Source: a virus. Taken from it: 33,022 bases of DNA. Numbering within the stretch: position 1 is the stretch's first letter; each line of letters begins with the position of its first letter. Positions 3,041 to 26,679 of this stretch are shown here, piece after piece. Made by a program: the position numbers and the translations under genes. The notes beneath the pieces are model-generated. The model was not told the DNA's origin, did no database searches, and worked only from the letters and a program-made list of their open reading frames with translations. The stretch is from positions 1-33,022 of IMG/VR virus record IMGVR_UViG_3300036768_001032. One strand, 5' to 3'.

Positions 3041-3063
3041 GTTCTTTTGAAAGGAGGTAAGCT

Positions 3064-3300
3064 ATGTGTCCTTACTGCGGACGAAAGGAGGAAGATATGC
3101 GTGGCAGCATTGCTGCTCGGCGAGGTCGGGACGAAGCGTTAAGGGAAGTTCTTCACTTGGTTGAAGAACTGCGGGACAAGGCGTTGCACGAGGCTGATTT
3201 ATTTGGCGGGGTCAAAAAGGTCGGCATCAATCACGAAATCACGGCGTATGCAAGGATAATCAAGGCAATCAAAACGATACTTGGCGAGGACACTGGCTAA
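3064..3300 (+). CDS. Small protein with two SD-led in-frame starts
   Basis: A 78-residue protein if started at 3064, after the SD AAAGGAGG. The first eleven codons include CPYCG (one half of a zinc ribbon) and also encode a second perfect SD (CGAAAGGAGG) followed by an in-frame ATG at 3097, giving a 67-residue form without the cysteines. Both starts look usable. The body is helical (EALREVLHLVEELRDKALHE; AYARIIKAIKTIL). I do not recognise the family. A strong GC-rich hairpin follows its stop. Base composition is richer in G+C than in the structural genes. Confidence 0.75.
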   Translation: MCPYCGRKEEDMRGSIAARRGRDEALREVLHLVEELRDKALHEADLFGGVKKVGINHEITAYARIIKAIKTILGEDTG

Positions 3301-4125: not shown

Positions 4126-4401
4126 ATGAAGAACATCGGCTTCGGTATCGTGTGCTGGGAAGATGCGGCGTCGTATGAGCGGGCTTATAGTCTTGAAGAT
4201 TGCAAGCTGGTCGGACAGACCACCATCGGGCAAATCTTCGAGACCGAGACCACTTATATAGTAATCACAACGATACAAGAGGGCGGAAGTTGTTTTGACG
4301 CCGTCGTGATACCAAAGTGCTGGGTCTGGGACATTACCAGATTAAAGGAGGTCAAAGATGCCAAGCCAAGAGCTAAAAAGATGGCTGGAAAGAATGCGTG
4401 A
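4126..4401 (+). CDS. Unknown 91-aa protein
   Basis: The start at ATG 4126 is chosen because AAAAGGAGGG lies just upstream; the frame is open further upstream but crosses the hairpin and has no better start. The protein is mixed alpha/beta (IGFGIVCWEDAAS; TTYIVITTIQEGG; AVVIPKCWVW) and ends in a basic tail whose codons overlap the start of the next gene by 44 bases. The first ~75 residues look like one compact beta-rich domain. No family recognised. The SD-led gene belongs to the GC-richer accessory cassette. Confidence 0.75.
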   Translation: MKNIGFGIVCWEDAASYERAYSLEDCKLVGQTTIGQIFETETTYIVITTIQEGGSCFDAVVIPKCWVWDITRLKEVKDAKPRAKKMAGKNA

Positions 4402-4987
4402 AGAAAAACTCCAAGACCCCTACTTCTATGCCAGACCCAAAGAGTATCACTCCTCCAAGCTAAACCCTAACCATTGCTTAAATGCCAAATGGCGAGCATT
4501 TATGCGAGCAATGGAAGAGGGAAGGCATCCAGACTTGCCATTAAAGGCAAGACTGCGTATGCAAATGGGGGAGCTGGTGCATCGAGAGATTGAGCGACTA
4601 ATCGGAGATGACTTCCAAAAAGAAGTCGTCGCTAAAATACCGATACTGGACTTCCACATCGTTTGCAGGGCGGACTTGCTTGGCAAGGATGTAGTAATAG
4701 ACATTAAGACTTGGGACAGGAAAGACCAGCCACTACCTAAAAAGCCAGAGGTTGGACACCTCTACCAAGTCAATACCTATTGCTACGCTTTTCAGCGTAA
4801 GGTTGCCAAGCTTTGGTATATCAACTACAACACAGGCGAAGATGTTTGGTTTGAGCATCGAGCCGACCCCAAGATGTACCGTGATGTTATCGCTTATGCC
4901 ACACTTCTTGATTGGTTCATAACTCACAATCAAGAGCCACCACACAAGCCAGATTGCCGATGCCATCACAAGGGCGGAATGGAATAA
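4358..4987 (+). CDS. Cas4/RecB-like PD-(D/E)XK exonuclease
   Basis: 209 residues, SD AAAGGAGGTC. A RecB-family core is visible: GELVHREIERL (conserved His about residue 75), the Asp of CRADLLGKD (about 104), then VVIDIKTW with the Asp-x-Lys pair (about 114-116), and a Gln-Tyr motif in HLYQVNTYCYAF. There is one Cys near the N-terminus (NPNHCLNAKW, about residue 40) and a C-terminal cluster DCRCHH, reminiscent of the split Fe-S cysteines of Cas4 and AddB nucleases, although only three cysteines plus histidines are obvious. It likely degrades or trims DNA ends in replication or recombination; phage Cas4-like proteins have also been linked to CRISPR interference. A second PD-(D/E)XK protein lies at 14660. 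Confidence 0.8.
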   Translation: MPSQELKRWLERMREEKLQDPYFYARPKEYHSSKLNPNHCLNAKWRAFMRAMEEGRHPDLPLKARLRMQMGELVHREIERLIGDDFQKEVVAKIPILDFHIVCRADLLGKDVVIDIKTWDRKDQPLPKKPEVGHLYQVNTYCYAFQRKVAKLWYINYNTGEDVWFEHRADPKMYRDVIAYATLLDWFITHNQEPPHKPDCRCHHKGGME

Positions 4988-7539: not shown

Positions 7540-7848
7540 TTGTATGCCTCGTATACCCCCCAAACTTGCGTTTATAGCGATTATAGCAAGGGGGGGATAG
7601 AAAGATATATCAGATGTCGGGCAAAAGAGGAAGGAGTTAATCCTAATTTGGCTATTAGAATTATAAAATGCGAAAGTAGTTTCAACCCAGATGCGATTGG
7701 AGACAGCGGGTGCTCTCGGGGGCTTTGGCAGATAAATCTTTGCGTTCATAAAAACATAACAAAAGAAGAAGCTCACGATGTGATAATTTCCACCAACTGG
7801 GCTTTACCAAAACTAAAAACTAATCCTTATATATGGAGTTGCTATTGA
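7540..7848 (+). CDS. Lytic transglycosylase (SLT-type), start uncertain
   Basis: From TTG 7540 the product is 102 residues: KCESSFNP contains the catalytic Glu45, followed by GDSGCSRGLWQIN, the classic SLT/goose-lysozyme pattern. It cleaves peptidoglycan glycan strands, for entry or lysis. The frame is open upstream to 7396 and encodes a basic stretch, then the hydrophobic run CIIILAVVFLILPKIAS (7432-7482), an apparent signal peptide or membrane anchor, but that part has no ATG, GTG or TTG. The true N-terminus may therefore use a rare start (ATC/ATT), a frameshift from the 7283 gene, or reflect a base error. Six cysteines suggest disulfides and export. Confidence 0.78.
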   Translation: MYASYTPQTCVYSDYSKGGIERYIRCRAKEEGVNPNLAIRIIKCESSFNPDAIGDSGCSRGLWQINLCVHKNITKEEAHDVIISTNWALPKLKTNPYIWSCY

Positions 7849-7863
7849 AAGGAGGTGAAGAAA

Positions 7864-8040: not shown

Positions 8041-8068
8041 TTGACTTTTGAAAAAGAGGGAGTATAAT
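8041..8068 (+). promoter_or_regulatory. Consensus sigma70 promoter of ncRNA
   Basis: TTGACT at 8041-8046 and a perfect TATAAT at 8063-8068, spacer 16 bases. No start codon with an ORF of note follows closely; the transcript, expected to start at about 8075, is non-coding. Confidence 0.78.
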
Positions 8069-8159
8069 ATAATATATACTATCTAACTCGCCAAACCATT
8101 ATCGCGCTGTCGCCGGGTAGGCACAGGGAACGCTTAGTGGGGCGGACGGTTAGATGGTT

Positions 8160-8240
8160 CAGGGCGGAGATTATCCACCCTACCGGATTTCAATATTTCT
8201 ACTTTTGTAGATAATAATAAAACATCTCCGCCCTGTTTTT
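8160..8240 (+). terminator. Intrinsic terminator with large loop
   Basis: Perfect 12-bp GC-rich stem (8160-8171 with 8224-8235) directly followed by TTTTT (8236-8240). The loop is unusually long (52 bases) and holds the Cas12a-type hairpin. The nuclease gene starts 8 bases further on, so read-through would be needed to express it from this promoter. Confidence 0.75.
8195..8212 (+). repeat. Solitary type V-A (Cas12a) CRISPR repeat core
   Basis: ATTTCTACTTTTGTAGAT is identical over 18 nt to the crRNA handle form ATTTCTACTNTTGTAGAT used by Cas12a, including the TCTAC/GTAGA stem and TTTT loop. The next base upstream is T, where the common 19-nt handle has A. No second copy was seen by eye in the window. 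Confidence 0.85.
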
Positions 8241-8247
8241 ATAAATT

Positions 8248-9478: not shown

Positions 9479-9934
9479 ATGATACATCAAATTAGAAACA
9501 GACATACAAATGAGATAATTATAGAAACAGAAACAGAAACAGAAACACTGAAAGAAGCAATAGAAAAAAACAAAGCGAAACTTGCGAGAGCAAACCTTCA
9601 AGGAATGGACTTTCAAGGAGTAAACCTTCAAGCAGCAGACCTTGCGGGAGCAAACCTTCAAGATGCATACCTCGCAGAAGCAGACCTTCGAGGGGCAAAT
9701 CTTATGGGGGCAAACCTTCAGGACGCATACCTAACAAAAGCAGATCTTCGAGGAGCAAATCTTGCGGAAGCAAACCTTTGGAGAGCCAATCTTCAAGGGG
9801 CAAACCTTCAGGACGCAAACCTTGCGAAAGCAAACTTTAAGATGGCAAATCTCGGAGGAGCTAAAATAAAAATAACACAAAAAGAAGATTTAATTAAAAG
9901 TTTAGGAATTGTTATAAGTGAAAATGAAATTTGA
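9479..9934 (+). CDS. Pentapeptide-repeat protein
   Basis: 151 residues. After a ~38-residue charged N-terminus containing (ET)4, about 18 consecutive A(D/N)LxxAN-type pentapeptides run from about residue 39 to 132 (for example ANLQGANLQDANLAKANF), which should form a right-handed quadrilateral beta helix. At DNA level the unit is a 15-base period (GCAAACCTTCAAGG-like), with clear internal duplications. Known pentapeptide proteins include DNA mimics that protect gyrase (Qnr, MfpA); without the loops of Qnr this role cannot be claimed. The C-terminal ~20 residues are charged and non-repetitive. No SD. Confidence 0.9.
   Translation: MIHQIRNRHTNEIIIETETETETLKEAIEKNKAKLARANLQGMDFQGVNLQAADLAGANLQDAYLAEADLRGANLMGANLQDAYLTKADLRGANLAEANLWRANLQGANLQDANLAKANFKMANLGGAKIKITQKEDLIKSLGIVISENEI
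9523..9546. repeat. AGAAAC hexanucleotide repeat, four copies
   Basis: Four perfect tandem AGAAAC units inside the pentapeptide gene encode alternating Glu-Thr (four pairs). Unit length is a multiple of three, so copy-number changes would alter length without frameshifting. Confidence 0.9.
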
Positions 9935-11118: not shown

Positions 11119-11138
11119 CTTTTTTGATACTTTAAATC

Positions 11139-11166
11139 TTGATTTTTTAAAAAAATATCTTATAAT
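11139..11166 (+). promoter_or_regulatory. Promoter of the anti-SD RNA
   Basis: TTGATT at 11139-11144 and perfect TATAAT at 11161-11166, spacer 16 bases. The expected start is 11172-11173, exactly the first base of the ACAACAA stem of the first hairpin, which supports a designed small RNA and not a leader for a coding gene. Confidence 0.78.
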
Positions 11167-11172
11167 AAGAAT

Positions 11173-11381
11173 ACAACAATCACCTCCTTTTTGTTGTTGT
11201 GTTCTTTCCCGGGGATGGTCTTATGACCTTCCCCGGAAAGGGACATAAGTTTATGAATATATATCAGCAAAACGCTAAAATTCAAAAGCTGTATAATGAT
11301 CTCCACAGTGAGGTCATTAGACATCTTTTGGATGTTTTGCTGATACCAAAAAGGCTCGCATTTTTTGCGAGCTCTTTTTGG
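11173..11381 (+). ncRNA. Small RNA with anti-Shine-Dalgarno apical loop
   Basis: A ~209-nt RNA inferred from a promoter and a terminator. Hairpin 1: ACAACAA 11173-11179 with TTGTTGT 11191-11197; its 11-nt loop TCACCTCCTTT (11180-11190) is the anti-SD of 16S rRNA. Hairpin 2: 11204-11240, CTTTCC/GGAAAG, GGGGA/TCCCC and GGTC/GACC with TTAT loop. Hairpin 3: 12 bp TATCAGCAAAAC 11262-11273 with GTTTTGCTGATA 11334-11345, then CAAAAG/CTTTTG (11283-11288/11325-11330), then a 9-bp stem AATGATCTC/GAGGTCATT (11295-11303/11310-11318). Hairpin 4 is the terminator. The 14 nt ATCACCTCCTTTTT (11179-11192) are perfectly complementary to the ribosome site of the 12648 gene and 10-12 nt to five others. No significant ORF. 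Confidence 0.75.
11346..11381 (+). terminator. Terminator of the anti-SD RNA (possibly bidirectional)
   Basis: CTCGCA 11355-11360 pairs with TGCGAG 11366-11371; the stem extends through G-C and an outer CCAAAAAG/CTTTTTGG (11346-11353/11374-11381) with one bulged T. A T-run 11375-11379 ends the + strand stem; the A-run at 11348-11352 gives the same on the other strand. Confidence 0.75.
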
Positions 11382-11390
11382 TTGCACAAT

Positions 11391-11565
11391 TGACAACAAG
11401 AGAGTAGCTTTTGGGCAATCTACTATAAAACTTTGTCCAGTAAATAGCCAAAAACTTTGGCGAAGTGCATTAAGGTGCTGATGCGAAAGCACGGAAAAAG
11501 GGTTGACCCCTCCCTCCGTGCCATCTAATCAGCATCGTAATGCATACCATCATTTCTTGTTGTCA
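11391..11565. other. 175-bp foldback element with nested stems
   Basis: Outer 11-bp inverted repeat TGACAACAAGA 11391-11401 with TCTTGTTGTCA 11555-11565. Inside: AGTAG/CTACT (11403-11407/11420-11424), GCCAAA/TTTGGC (11447-11452/11456-11461), then a long rod of TGCATTA/TAATGCA (11466-11472/11538-11544), TGCTGAT/ATCAGCA (11476-11482/11528-11534), GCACGGA/TCCGTGC (11489-11495/11515-11521) and GGG/CCC (11500-11502/11507-11509). It could be a structured RNA, a replication origin structure or a small mobile foldback. No clear promoter or ORF belongs to it. Confidence 0.72.
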
Positions 11566-11669
11566 TACATATTTCAAATTGAATTGCCTTTCTATTGATG
11601 TTAGTAGGTAAAAGGGGAGGAATTGTTTTTTATATATTATCACTTATTTTTTAAAAAATCAATAGTAGC

Positions 11670-11710
11670 TTTGTTCGTATTTTGTTCGGTTGGGGATAAC
11701 TTGGGGATAA
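11670..11710. repeat. 11-bp-phased iterons / operator array
   Basis: TTTGTTCG occurs at 11670-11677 and 11681-11688; TTGGGGATAA occurs at 11690-11699 and 11701-11710; both pairs have 11-base spacing, about one helical turn. TTATCCCCAA, the complement, resembles a DnaA-box variant. The array ends 17 bases before the -35 of the early promoter at 11728, so it may be an operator, an origin, or both. Confidence 0.72.
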
Positions 11711-11727
11711 ATCGGGGTTTTATGCTC

Positions 11728-11756
11728 TTGATTTTTTAAAAATAATAATATATAAT
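11728..11756 (+). promoter_or_regulatory. Early operon promoter
   Basis: TTGATT at 11728-11733 and TATAAT at 11751-11756 with the ideal 17-base spacer. Start expected near 11763, giving a ~45-nt leader that contains the strong SD of the first gene at 11808. The phased repeats lie just upstream. Confidence 0.78.
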
Positions 11757-11807
11757 GTAATTGAAAGTAAAATAATAAAAAAAACAAAAGAAAGGAGGTG
11801 ATAAAAA

Positions 11808-12122
11808 ATGAAAAACAAAGAACAAAAAATAAAATTAAATTTAGGCAAAGTCGTAATAACCACCGGGGCTTTAACTTTTGCGAGAGGTTCGTATGATTGC
11901 GCCGGTTTAGTTCCTGCCGAGCTAATTGAAAAAATTTTAAACAGACATCGCAACGGCGACTGGGGCGACATTAGCGAAGAAGAAAAAAGAAATAACGAAA
12001 TTGCTTTAGAAACAGGAGAAAGAATAATCAGCGTCTATAAAATTAACGACTATACTAAAATATGGGTCATTACGGAAGGCGACAGATCAACAACAACGGT
12101 TTTATTAGCAGACGAATATTAA
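11808..12122 (+). CDS. Widespread small conserved protein (plasmid/phage-type), 104 aa
   Basis: First gene of the early operon, SD AAAGGAGGTGAT at 11791-11802. The sequence pattern LGKVVITTGAL, then ILNRHRNGDWGDI, a central N-x-x-AL-x-x-G-x-R-I-x-S-x-Y, and VITEGDRSTTTVLLADEY is that of a family common on bacterial chromosomes and plasmids, usually annotated as hypothetical or plasmid-related. Its biochemical role is not established to my knowledge. The full length is present. The leader SD is perfectly complementary over 12 bases to the loop region of the RNA at 11173. Confidence 0.85.
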   Translation: MKNKEQKIKLNLGKVVITTGALTFARGSYDCAGLVPAELIEKILNRHRNGDWGDISEEEKRNNEIALETGERIISVYKINDYTKIWVITEGDRSTTTVLLADEY

Positions 12123-12134
12123 AGTTTTTTTATG

Positions 12135-12161
12135 GCTTGCTTCTTAAAACGAGAAGCAAGC
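12135..12161. other. Intergenic hairpin in early operon
   Basis: GCTTGCTTCT 12135-12144 pairs with AGAAGCAAGC 12152-12161; flanking AAAGTTT 12121-12127 and AAACTTT further out (about 12170-12176) can extend it. No T-run follows. It separates the 11808 and 12205 genes and ends ~27 bases before the next SD. Confidence 0.75.
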
Positions 12162-12204
12162 AATAAGGAAACTTTAAAATTTAAAAGGAAGGAGGTGATT
12201 AAAA

Positions 12205-12615
12205 ATGAAAAACGCAACAACACAAATACCCGAAAATTTTGAATTATTGGCAGAGGTGGCGAGAAATTTTGAAAACGCAGACGAGTTTATTGAATTTATT
12301 GAAAAAGACATTTTAGACAGAAAAGTTTTGCCGCCGCTGGGCGTAAGAAATGCACCATCGGAAATTGCAGATAAAATTATACAGCTAAAAAAAATTATCG
12401 GTGGCTACTTTACAAAAAAAAATAGAGCAGCAACAGAAAAGGAGGCTTACGAGGCATTTTTAAAGGCAAAAGAAGAGGGCAGGGGCTGGGCGAGAGGAAG
12501 AAGTTTTAAGAACCCATCAATACGATTGCGAGCTATAGCGGAAGCAACACGTGTTGACGATATCGGACTTGATAAAGAGCAACTTATCAATTTTTACAAC
12601 AAAATAAAAAAATAA
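12205..12615 (+). CDS. Unknown 136-aa early protein
   Basis: Start fixed by AAGGAGGTGATT at 12189-12200. Predicted largely helical; residues 9-35 are acidic (LLAEVARNFENADEFIEFIE), while residues about 85-115 are basic (GRGWARGRSFKNPSIRLRAI), suggesting nucleic-acid contact. No recognised domain. It is part of the run of small, strongly SD-led genes. Confidence 0.75.
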   Translation: MKNATTQIPENFELLAEVARNFENADEFIEFIEKDILDRKVLPPLGVRNAPSEIADKIIQLKKIIGGYFTKKNRAATEKEAYEAFLKAKEEGRGWARGRSFKNPSIRLRAIAEATRVDDIGLDKEQLINFYNKIKK

Positions 12616-12647
12616 AAAATAATATTTAAAAAAGGAGGTGATAAAAA

Positions 12648-12794
12648 ATGAGCTATAAAATTAATGTTTGGAGGCAAAAAAAAGAAGAACAGGAAAAAGA
12701 AGCAACGAAGCAGGCAATTATTGATGTCATCACATATATCGTTATCGGTTATCTCATCTGGCACTGGATTTTTACTTCTTTTGTTTGCCGATAA
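12648..12794 (+). CDS. 48-aa early membrane protein
   Basis: Strong SD AAAGGAGGTGAT at 12631-12642, 5 bases from ATG. Basic/acidic helical N-terminus (WRQKKEEQEKEATKQAI) and one membrane span, about residues 25-45 (DVITYIVIGYLIWHWIFTSF). Early single-span phage proteins of this size are often host-takeover or superinfection-exclusion factors; the function here is unknown. Its ribosome site has the longest match (14 bases) to the anti-SD RNA. Confidence 0.72.
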   Translation: MSYKINVWRQKKEEQEKEATKQAIIDVITYIVIGYLIWHWIFTSFVCR

Positions 12795-12824
12795 AATTTA
12801 AAAAAGAAAGGAGGTGAAATTAAA

Positions 12825-12995
12825 ATGAGGTACTTTTGTGAAATTTGCGGTGAAATTTACAAGCCGGACAAAATAGAAACAGATTTGCTGGTATGTCCGT
12901 ATTGCGGTGATTATGTACACGAAGTTGATGACGATATAACGGAAGACGAGCTATTTGAGATTTTGACAGGTTCTAAAACCGGCGATAACAATTAA
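12825..12995 (+). CDS. 56-aa zinc-ribbon protein
   Basis: SD AAAGGAGGTGA at 12808-12818. Two C-x2-C knuckles (FCEICGE and VCPYCGD, residues 5-8 and 24-27) 16 residues apart form a rubredoxin-like or zinc-ribbon fold, followed by an acidic tail (EVDDDITEDELFEIL). The acidic tail suggests a protein-binding or DNA-mimic role, perhaps with transcription machinery; this is inference. Confidence 0.78.
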   Translation: MRYFCEICGEIYKPDKIETDLLVCPYCGDYVHEVDDDITEDELFEILTGSKTGDNN

Positions 12996-13005
12996 AAACA
13001 AAAAA

Positions 13006-13245
13006 ATGACCATCAAAGAATTAATAATTTATTTTTTAAAAGAAATAAAAGGGAATGAATGGGTCTATGGCGGGACAATAGAAGATTACGTAAGAAGAAT
13101 TCTTGGCAACAAGGCAAGCAATGTATCCAGACGATGCAGAGAGCTATATCACGAAGGAAAATTAGACAGACGGCTCGTAAAAGTCAATAGCGTCAATGTA
13201 GTCCAATACCGCTTCCGCCAAAAGAATCCAAACGAACTAATTTAG
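13006..13245 (+). CDS. Winged-helix-like DNA-binding protein candidate
   Basis: 79 residues, no SD. MTIKELIIYFLKEIKGNEWV opens a helical domain, and ASNVSRRCRELYHEGKLDRR followed by a short basic beta hairpin (VNSVNVVQYRFRQ) matches the recognition-helix-plus-wing pattern. Probably a small transcription or replication regulator. Specific target unknown. It starts 10 bases after the zinc-ribbon gene and ends just before a promoter. Confidence 0.65.
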   Translation: MTIKELIIYFLKEIKGNEWVYGGTIEDYVRRILGNKASNVSRRCRELYHEGKLDRRLVKVNSVNVVQYRFRQKNPNELI

Positions 13246-13247
13246 AC

Positions 13248-13276
13248 TTGATTTTTAAAAAAATATATAATATAAT
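13248..13276 (+). promoter_or_regulatory. Internal promoter, leaderless transcript
   Basis: TTGATT at 13248-13253 and TATAAT at 13271-13276, spacer 17. Expected transcription start is 13282-13284, which coincides with ATG 13284. The gene would be read from a leaderless mRNA. A second TATAAT at 13266 overlaps it. Confidence 0.72.
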
Positions 13277-13283
13277 AAAGTAT

Positions 13284-13502
13284 ATGAGAACAATCAAAGG
13301 CAAAAAATATTTATCAGTTTACGATGTCAAACGCAATCTCGGCTACAAGACTTATTTAGGAGCGCGCAAGTTTGTTTTTAGGTATTATGATTTTTTGCAA
13401 CCGATAACCATCGGCAAAAATCAGGCAAAGAGATACTTTATCCCGGCAGACAATTTTGACAAATTGGTCAAAAAATTATGGAAGGAGGTGAGATTAAAAT
13501 GA
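13284..13502 (+). CDS. Small wHTH/excisionase-like protein candidate
   Basis: 72 residues from ATG 13284; a longer frame from TTG 13248 would run through the -35 and -10 boxes and is rejected. The pattern KYLSVYDVKRNLGYKTYLGARKF resembles a helix-turn-helix of MerR/Xis type; the rest is basic and aromatic. It probably binds DNA. With no integrase seen, a regulatory or replication-initiation role is more likely than excision. Its 3-prime end contains the SD of the next gene. Confidence 0.62.
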   Translation: MRTIKGKKYLSVYDVKRNLGYKTYLGARKFVFRYYDFLQPITIGKNQAKRYFIPADNFDKLVKKLWKEVRLK

Positions 13503-26466: not shown

Positions 26467-26679
26467 ATGAGTGATAGAAAGAGAAAATATAAAGTCCTTA
26501 AGCCGATAGCTTGGGGAGGACGCCGAGAGGTCGGCGAAATCATCGAGCTAACGGATAAGGAGGCGGCGAATCTTGGCGACGAGTACGTCGCGCTGGAGTC
26601 CGAACCCGTGACAACGGGCGCAAAGGTCGAGGACGAGGCGGCTGTCAAGCCCAAGAGATCGCATAAAGCCAAAAAATAA
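26467..26679 (+). CDS. Small head protein, 70 aa
   Basis: The pattern KYKVLKPIAWGGRREVGEII then ELTDKEAANLGDEYV resembles small head-gene proteins found between capsid and connector genes in many phages. A basic tail (KRSHKAKK) follows. GC content is higher than its neighbours. Function unknown (possible head-tail or capsid accessory protein). Confidence 0.72.
   Translation: MSDRKRKYKVLKPIAWGGRREVGEIIELTDKEAANLGDEYVALESEPVTTGAKVEDEAAVKPKRSHKAKK

Follow-up and report, generated by a model that had tools for sequence, protein, structure and literature searches.

What is the function of a predicted phage small RNA whose first hairpin loop is a copy of the 3' tail of 16S rRNA, the anti-Shine-Dalgarno (anti-SD) sequence? 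The locus that raises this question lies in the IMG/VR record IMGVR_UViG_3300036768_001032, which was analyzed over its whole length of 33,022 nt (the window). A 144-nt direct repeat was found at both ends of the window, which indicates that the genome is probably complete and circularized, with a length of about 32.9 kb. The + strand carries every assigned gene, and the terminase, portal, head, tail and tape-measure genes are located from 17.5 kb on. The terminase relatives (58-69%) are other uncultured phages, with cellular-genome matches in Kaiserbacteria and Nomurabacteria assemblies and a further, more distant relative in a Pacearchaeota bin. The Nomurabacteria contig with a terminase relative also encodes alanyl-tRNA synthetase, MnmA, BipA, FtsA and DnaK, which indicates that the phage group occurs in Paceibacteria chromosomes. 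Judged by its sequence, the phage is a member of a group found in Paceibacteria, tiny uncultured bacteria of the CPR. Spacers from Cas12a arrays of the host class gave only chance-level matches of 14-18 nt to the phage group, and the host is therefore not pinned to one strain.

The stretch 11119-11807 was taken as non-coding and contains the small-RNA locus. The promoter described in the initial annotation (TTGATT at 11139, TATAAT at 11161) was found, and it is of the same type as the promoters at 2759, 8041, 11728, 13248 and 16518. The spacing to this promoter would place the transcription start at about 11173, as had been proposed. Folding likewise recovered the 7-bp hairpin with its 11-nt anti-SD loop and the three further hairpins up to a terminator at 11381, both of which had been described before. 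The whole predicted RNA has an MFE of -98.8 kcal/mol (z = -11.87), and none of the 200 shuffles was equally stable; hairpin 1 alone, taken as a 25-mer, has an MFE of -4.5 kcal/mol. The loop sequence TCACCTCCTTT equals the 16S 3' tail with the anti-SD, and its unpaired probability within the whole RNA is 0.93-1.0. The 12-nt copy of the host-class 16S tail reads ATCACCTCCTTT, and 11 nt of it are inside the open loop. The coordinates of the locus and of the SDs that pair with it are collected in Table 1.

Table 1 Features of the small-RNA locus and the long SDs of the phage, in positions of the window.
Feature	Positions	Strand	Pairing	Basis
Promoter, TTGATT (11139), 16-nt spacer, TATAAT (11161-11166)	11139-11166	+		motif match
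Predicted small RNA, about 210 nt	11173-11382	+		fold compared with shuffles
Hairpin 1, ACAACAA-TCACCTCCTTT-TTGTTGT, 7 bp, 11-nt loop at 11180-11190	11173-11197	+		fold
Hairpin 2, GC-rich long stem, TTAT loop	11198-11247	+		fold
Hairpin 3, long near-palindrome ATCAGCAAAAC...GTTTTGCTGAT, 84 nt	11262-11345	+		fold
Intrinsic terminator, stem GGCTCGCA...TGCGAGCT, then T tract	11346-11381	+		fold and terminator prediction
SD AAAGGAGGT of gene 3064	3050-3058	+	9 nt with loop stretch	
SD AAAGGAGGT of gene 4358	4344-4352	+	9 nt with loop stretch	
SD AAAGGAGGTGA of gene 7864	7848-7858	+	11 nt with loop stretch	
SD AAAGGAGGTGAT of gene 11808 (own promoter 11728)	11791-11802	+	12 nt with loop stretch, 14 nt with anti-SD-keeping host tail	
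SD AAGGAGGTGAT of gene 12205	12189-12199	+	12 nt with loop stretch	
SD AAAGGAGGTGAT of gene 12648	12631-12642	+	14 nt with loop stretch, the longest	
SD AAAGGAGGTGA of gene 12825	12807-12817	+	11 nt with loop stretch	
SD AAGGAGGTGA of gene 13499	13482-13491	+	10 nt with loop stretch	

The sequence TCACCTCCTTT is present as 1 copy on the + strand of the window, and it is expected 0.01 times per 33 kb in dinucleotide shuffles with both strands counted. A looser test, in which CCTCC lies in a loop closed by a 7-bp stem with G-U pairs allowed, gave an expectation of 0.58 per window. Because the pattern of the looser test is not rare, what counts as evidence is the full tail sequence together with its position at the first base of the predicted transcript. 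The rare feature is the whole 16S tail inside the first-hairpin loop of a predicted transcript. Rfam returned no family at gathering score, and its matches at E<=10 were unrelated families far under their cut-offs. Two trivial origins of the sequence were considered and rejected. The first was a 16S rRNA fragment or pseudogene: there is no rRNA match, the flanks are unlike GTCGTAACAAGGCA...GTGG, and no helix 45 surrounds the tail. The second was a minus-strand gene with the complementary AGGAGGTGATTG as its SD, which the initial annotation had named as a refutation; it is excluded, since the starts downstream open at most about 10 codons.

Alternatively, the RNA would be no trans regulator: within a long non-coding stretch, the locus may be a cis element that leads a small ORF, or it may act as DNA, for example as an origin, and the anti-SD would be incidental. 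Several long palindromes are grouped at 11198-11565, and an ORF of 46 aa is open from ATG 11253 to the stop at 11393. However, the terminator ends at 11381, ahead of the ORF stop at 11391-11393, and the 46-aa ORF has no Pfam match. No GC-skew switch was seen near 11 kb, and chance alone would hardly give the first loop an exact 11-nt anti-SD. A cis or DNA element is considered unlikely.

The genes of the phage fall into two classes when the SD length is measured as the longest match to AAAGGAGGTGATC ahead of each likely start. Eight genes (3064, 4358, 7864, 11808, 12205, 12648, 12825 and 13499) have SDs of 9-12 nt. Nearly all of the about 45 other genes have matches of 2-5 nt, which is background, and the sole value above 5 among the accepted starts is 6 nt at 26467; none of the structural genes has a long SD. 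Among the six promoters of the small-RNA type, only the one at 11728, ahead of 11808, yields a leader with an SD, and the promoter type is common to the RNA and the SD-led operon. The sequence AAGGAGGTGA is found on the coding strand 6 times in this phage, compared with 2 times in 747 kb of relatives and 7 times in 478 kb of hosts. Among 348 ORFs of related phages none has an SD of at least 9 nt, and among 394 host ORFs 3 do. These SD counts indicate that the RNA and the long-SD genes co-occur in this single genome and are jointly absent from the examined relatives.

The pairing of the RNA with these genes was then compared with that of the host 16S tail. The predicted duplexes with the hairpin range from -14.8 to -25.1 kcal/mol for the eight SD leaders, the value for the leader of 11808 being -25.1 kcal/mol, versus -5.4 to -11.2 kcal/mol for eight SD-less leaders, and opening hairpin 1 costs only about 4.5 kcal/mol. 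The complementarities, Watson-Crick runs of 9-14 nt, agree with the lengths first listed for 12648 (14), 11808 (12), 7864 (11), 12825 (11) and 13499 (10), but the one at 12205 is 12 nt, longer than claimed, and those at 3064 and 4358 (9 each) had been missed. The RNA has an exposed seed complementary to the ribosome sites of several genes, a feature of the functional class of trans-acting SD-masking sRNAs.

The anti-SD-keeping Paceibacteria tail ATCACCTCCTTTCT served as the host tail in this comparison. At four SDs (3064, 7864, 11808 and 12825), the pairing of the host tail extends beyond that of the RNA, and the two pair equally far at the 4358 SD. The RNA pairs further than the host tail at 12205, at 12648 and, counting G-U only, at 13499. 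At the four SDs that pair further with the host 16S tail, the ribosome could therefore win the competition. Pairing alone is no proof of targeting, because anti-SD/SD complementarity is automatic and because four SDs fit the host tail better. The SD sequence is AGAAAGGAGGTGA(T) at 11808 and 12825 and GAAAGGAGGT.. at 3064 and 7864. In all four cases, pairing with the retained host tails runs on into the CT behind CCTCCTTT, a position at which the phage RNA carries TT instead. The spacing from GGAGG to the start is 6-10 nt at the SD-led genes. Because of the pairing into the host CT and this spacing, the phage SDs look genuine for a ribosome with an anti-SD, and a host with a retained anti-SD and few SD-led genes is therefore favored.

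The 16S genes of Paceibacteria were located with RF00177 and their 3' ends were then read, in a small sample of draft genomes. The CCTCC anti-SD core is absent from 34 of the 45 readable tails (for example GGAATATTTCAA and GTGGAATATTTCAA; 16S loci L271-L319). The 11 tails that keep CCTCC all read ATCACCTCCTTTCT and are identical over 12 nt to the phage loop stretch. CCTCC was found in none of the readable tails of an order-level sample around the Nomurabacteria genome, which represents the order hosting a TerL relative. SD use is near background in both the anti-SD-keeping and the anti-SD-less genomes, and SDs of at least 9 nt were found in 3 of 232 sampled ORFs (about 1%) in the former and in 0 of 162 in the latter. 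Judging from these tails, the anti-SD may have been lost on a large scale in CPR bacteria. Anti-SD loss is known elsewhere (PMC3522020); for Paceibacteria, no report of it was found in the literature searched, which was mainly open-access.

Since most sampled tails, and every tail read in the order of the TerL-relative host, are without CCTCC, the RNA might be a part added to the ribosome. It would join the ribosomes of an anti-SD-less host and supply the anti-SD in trans, and the SD-led phage genes, whose SDs are otherwise partnerless in such a host, would then be translated. However, several SDs extend into AG-AAAGGAGGTGAT and match the UUUCU end of the retained host tails beyond the loop, the spacing to the start is that of ordinary SDs, and the RNA has no recognized ribosome-binding part. 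Such a supply in trans is very unlikely. An anti-SD-less host was the earlier leading reading and was dropped as the main one: 11 of the 45 tails keep the anti-SD, and four SDs pair past the loop into CT. A wider version, in which the eight SD-marked genes and the controlling copy of the anti-SD form a private translational channel and the RNA may switch these genes on in anti-SD-less hosts, is given only a slim chance.

The identity over 12 nt between the loop stretch and the retained Paceibacteria tails also bears on a decoy function. Here the loop would mimic the 3' end of the rRNA and titrate a protein that binds or cuts it, such as a 30S assembly factor, a ribosomal protein or a defence RNase that cleaves the anti-SD. 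Era binds GAUCACCUCC (PMC10582724), and toxins cutting the anti-SD region are reported (PMC12620021, PMC13284704). However, the copy lacks helix 45 and the G of GAUCA, and most CPR have lost Era (PMC10582724). A decoy also leaves the eight unusually long SDs of the phage unexplained, and we consider it quite improbable.

The duplex energies indicate that the loop would pair with any strong SD, and the RNA might therefore act mainly on the SDs of host mRNAs and stop host translation. The scarcity of SDs of at least 9 nt in host genes, in both the anti-SD-keeping and the other genomes, argues against such a shut-off, and the hardest hit would be the phage's own SD-led genes. This explanation is highly doubtful. 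The masking of SDs proposed in the initial annotation stands as the best reading for the SD-led phage genes, where SDs are exceptional, but a broad action on host genes is not supported, as only about 1% of the sampled genes of anti-SD-keeping hosts have an SD of at least 9 nt.

The explanation that we favor, and to which we give about half of our belief, is that of a trans-acting antisense sRNA of the phage that competes with the ribosome for phage genes led by an SD. As read from the sequence, the RNA could bind, and would probably block, eight SD-led viral genes while sparing the other viral genes. A host-type promoter of its own would drive its synthesis, and the 16S-tail copy would be displayed in the 5' hairpin as a preformed seed. 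By pairing with the 9-12-nt SDs, mainly those of the 11808-13499 cluster, the loop would exclude the ribosome from them. With accumulation of the RNA, the SD-led genes would be turned down together, and leaderless and SD-less genes, the structural ones included, would be unaffected. Hairpins 2 and 3 and the terminator would stabilize the RNA. Because SDs are a small, exceptional class in the phage and in the host group, an anti-SD loop would be selective and would make a switch, not a general poison. We infer transcription of the RNA, its pairing in the cell, the timing, and an outcome of repression rather than activation, the last being suggested by NfeR1 and by the general logic of SD occlusion.

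Several known systems share parts of this design. NfeR1 silences ntrB via aSD loop seeds (PMC10746234). It belongs with SmelA075 to the alpha-r14 aSD-loop sRNAs of Rhizobiales, which, like the phage RNA, have several hairpins and an anti-SD motif in an unpaired loop. They silence mRNAs by pairing at ribosome sites, and the same principle is proposed for the phage RNA. However, the alpha-r14 RNAs are bacterial and chromosomal and have CCUCCUCCC unpaired in three hairpins, whereas the phage RNA has the full 16S tail in one loop, that of hairpin 1 only. The setting also differs, as SDs are a rare class in the phage, and there is no detectable homology between the two. In the c4 antisense RNA of phages P1 and P7, complementary parts that are likely in loops also block a ribosome binding site (PMC12197685). 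The c4 RNA has the dedicated target ant, and it is processed from, and acts on, its own operon, which holds this antirepressor gene. In contrast, the phage RNA has a general anti-SD seed that matches at least eight phage genes, and these are scattered. The streptococcal csRNAs of the CiaRH regulon likewise direct unpaired anti-SD stretches against translation initiation regions (PMC3091779), but they are bacterial and controlled by CiaR, carry the anti-SD between two stem-loops and have an anti-start-codon part. In Flavobacteriales, the regulated gene rpsU likewise stands out by its extended SD from a genome that otherwise has no SDs (PMC9976891), but the regulation is by ribosomes lacking bS21 and involves no RNA. 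Membership in the alpha-r14, csRNA or c4 families is not claimed, as the sequence, motif and layout differ. The initial annotation had called the RNA an unfamiliar type. This is correct for a phage RNA with a copied host 16S tail, but complete anti-SD loops (NfeR1 and alpha-r14) and a phage RNA that blocks with its loops (c4) are known. The new element is a phage RNA whose loop copies the 16S tail of its host, against a background in which SDs are the exception.

Relatives of the RNA were searched at several levels. None was found by DNA similarity in INPHARED phages or by nhmmer in related phage loci, and in 384 Paceibacteria genomes the best matches of the RNA region cover the promoter part only, with up to 97% over 32 nt. 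In pattern searches of IMG/VR and the genomes, none of the matches listed and inspected has the promoter-plus-hairpin layout, and most of those inspected resemble coding sequence or ordinary minus-strand SDs. The neighboring gene 12205, used as bait, gave no relatives, and gene 11808 gave 3 distant loci, none of them with the anti-SD sequence. The relatives of the phage that were examined, several of which are fragments, have neither the anti-SD loop nor long SDs. Because some of them are fragments, absence in relatives is weak evidence. The joint absence of loop and long SDs is consistent with a connection between them, but it counts as one event in one genome.

If the favored mechanism of SD masking is true, a virus controls a defined subset of its genes with a piece of rRNA copied into its own small RNA. 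The switch would owe its selectivity entirely to the rarity of SD-led translation in these hosts, and it would also give access to translation control in CPR bacteria, whose ribosomes are reduced and, in most sampled Paceibacteria, appear to be without the anti-SD.

Further elements were observed in the window. At the promoters 2759, 13248 and 16518, an ATG lies 8-12 nt downstream of the -10 box, and some mRNAs of the phage may thus be leaderless. Directly 3' of the terminator, the stretch 11391-11565 is strongly structured (z = -7.3 and -7.4 for the two strands), with the ends TTGACAACAAGAGA/TTTCTTGTTGTCA and a long inner hairpin; this element could be an RNA, an origin or a recombination site. 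A pentapeptide-repeat protein is encoded by 15-nt tandem DNA repeats at 9479-9934. The SD-led gene 4358 (4358-4987) encodes a Cas4-like PD-(D/E)XK nuclease (phrog_1706, 'CRISPR/Cas system associated'). A second phage RNA is predicted at 8041-8247, with the promoter TTGACTTTTGAAAAAGAGGGAGTATAAT at 8041-8068 and a fold z of -6.4. It holds a single type V-A repeat, TTTCTACTTTTGTAGAT, at 8196-8212, which is the stem-loop of the Cas12a CRISPR repeats in Paceibacteria arrays, and the 'spacer' side of this repeat closes a CAGGGCGGAGAT/ATCTCCGCCCTG hairpin. With this solitary repeat unit, the second RNA is a candidate RNA anti-CRISPR; the RacrVA RNAs are tested RNA anti-CRISPRs that are already known.
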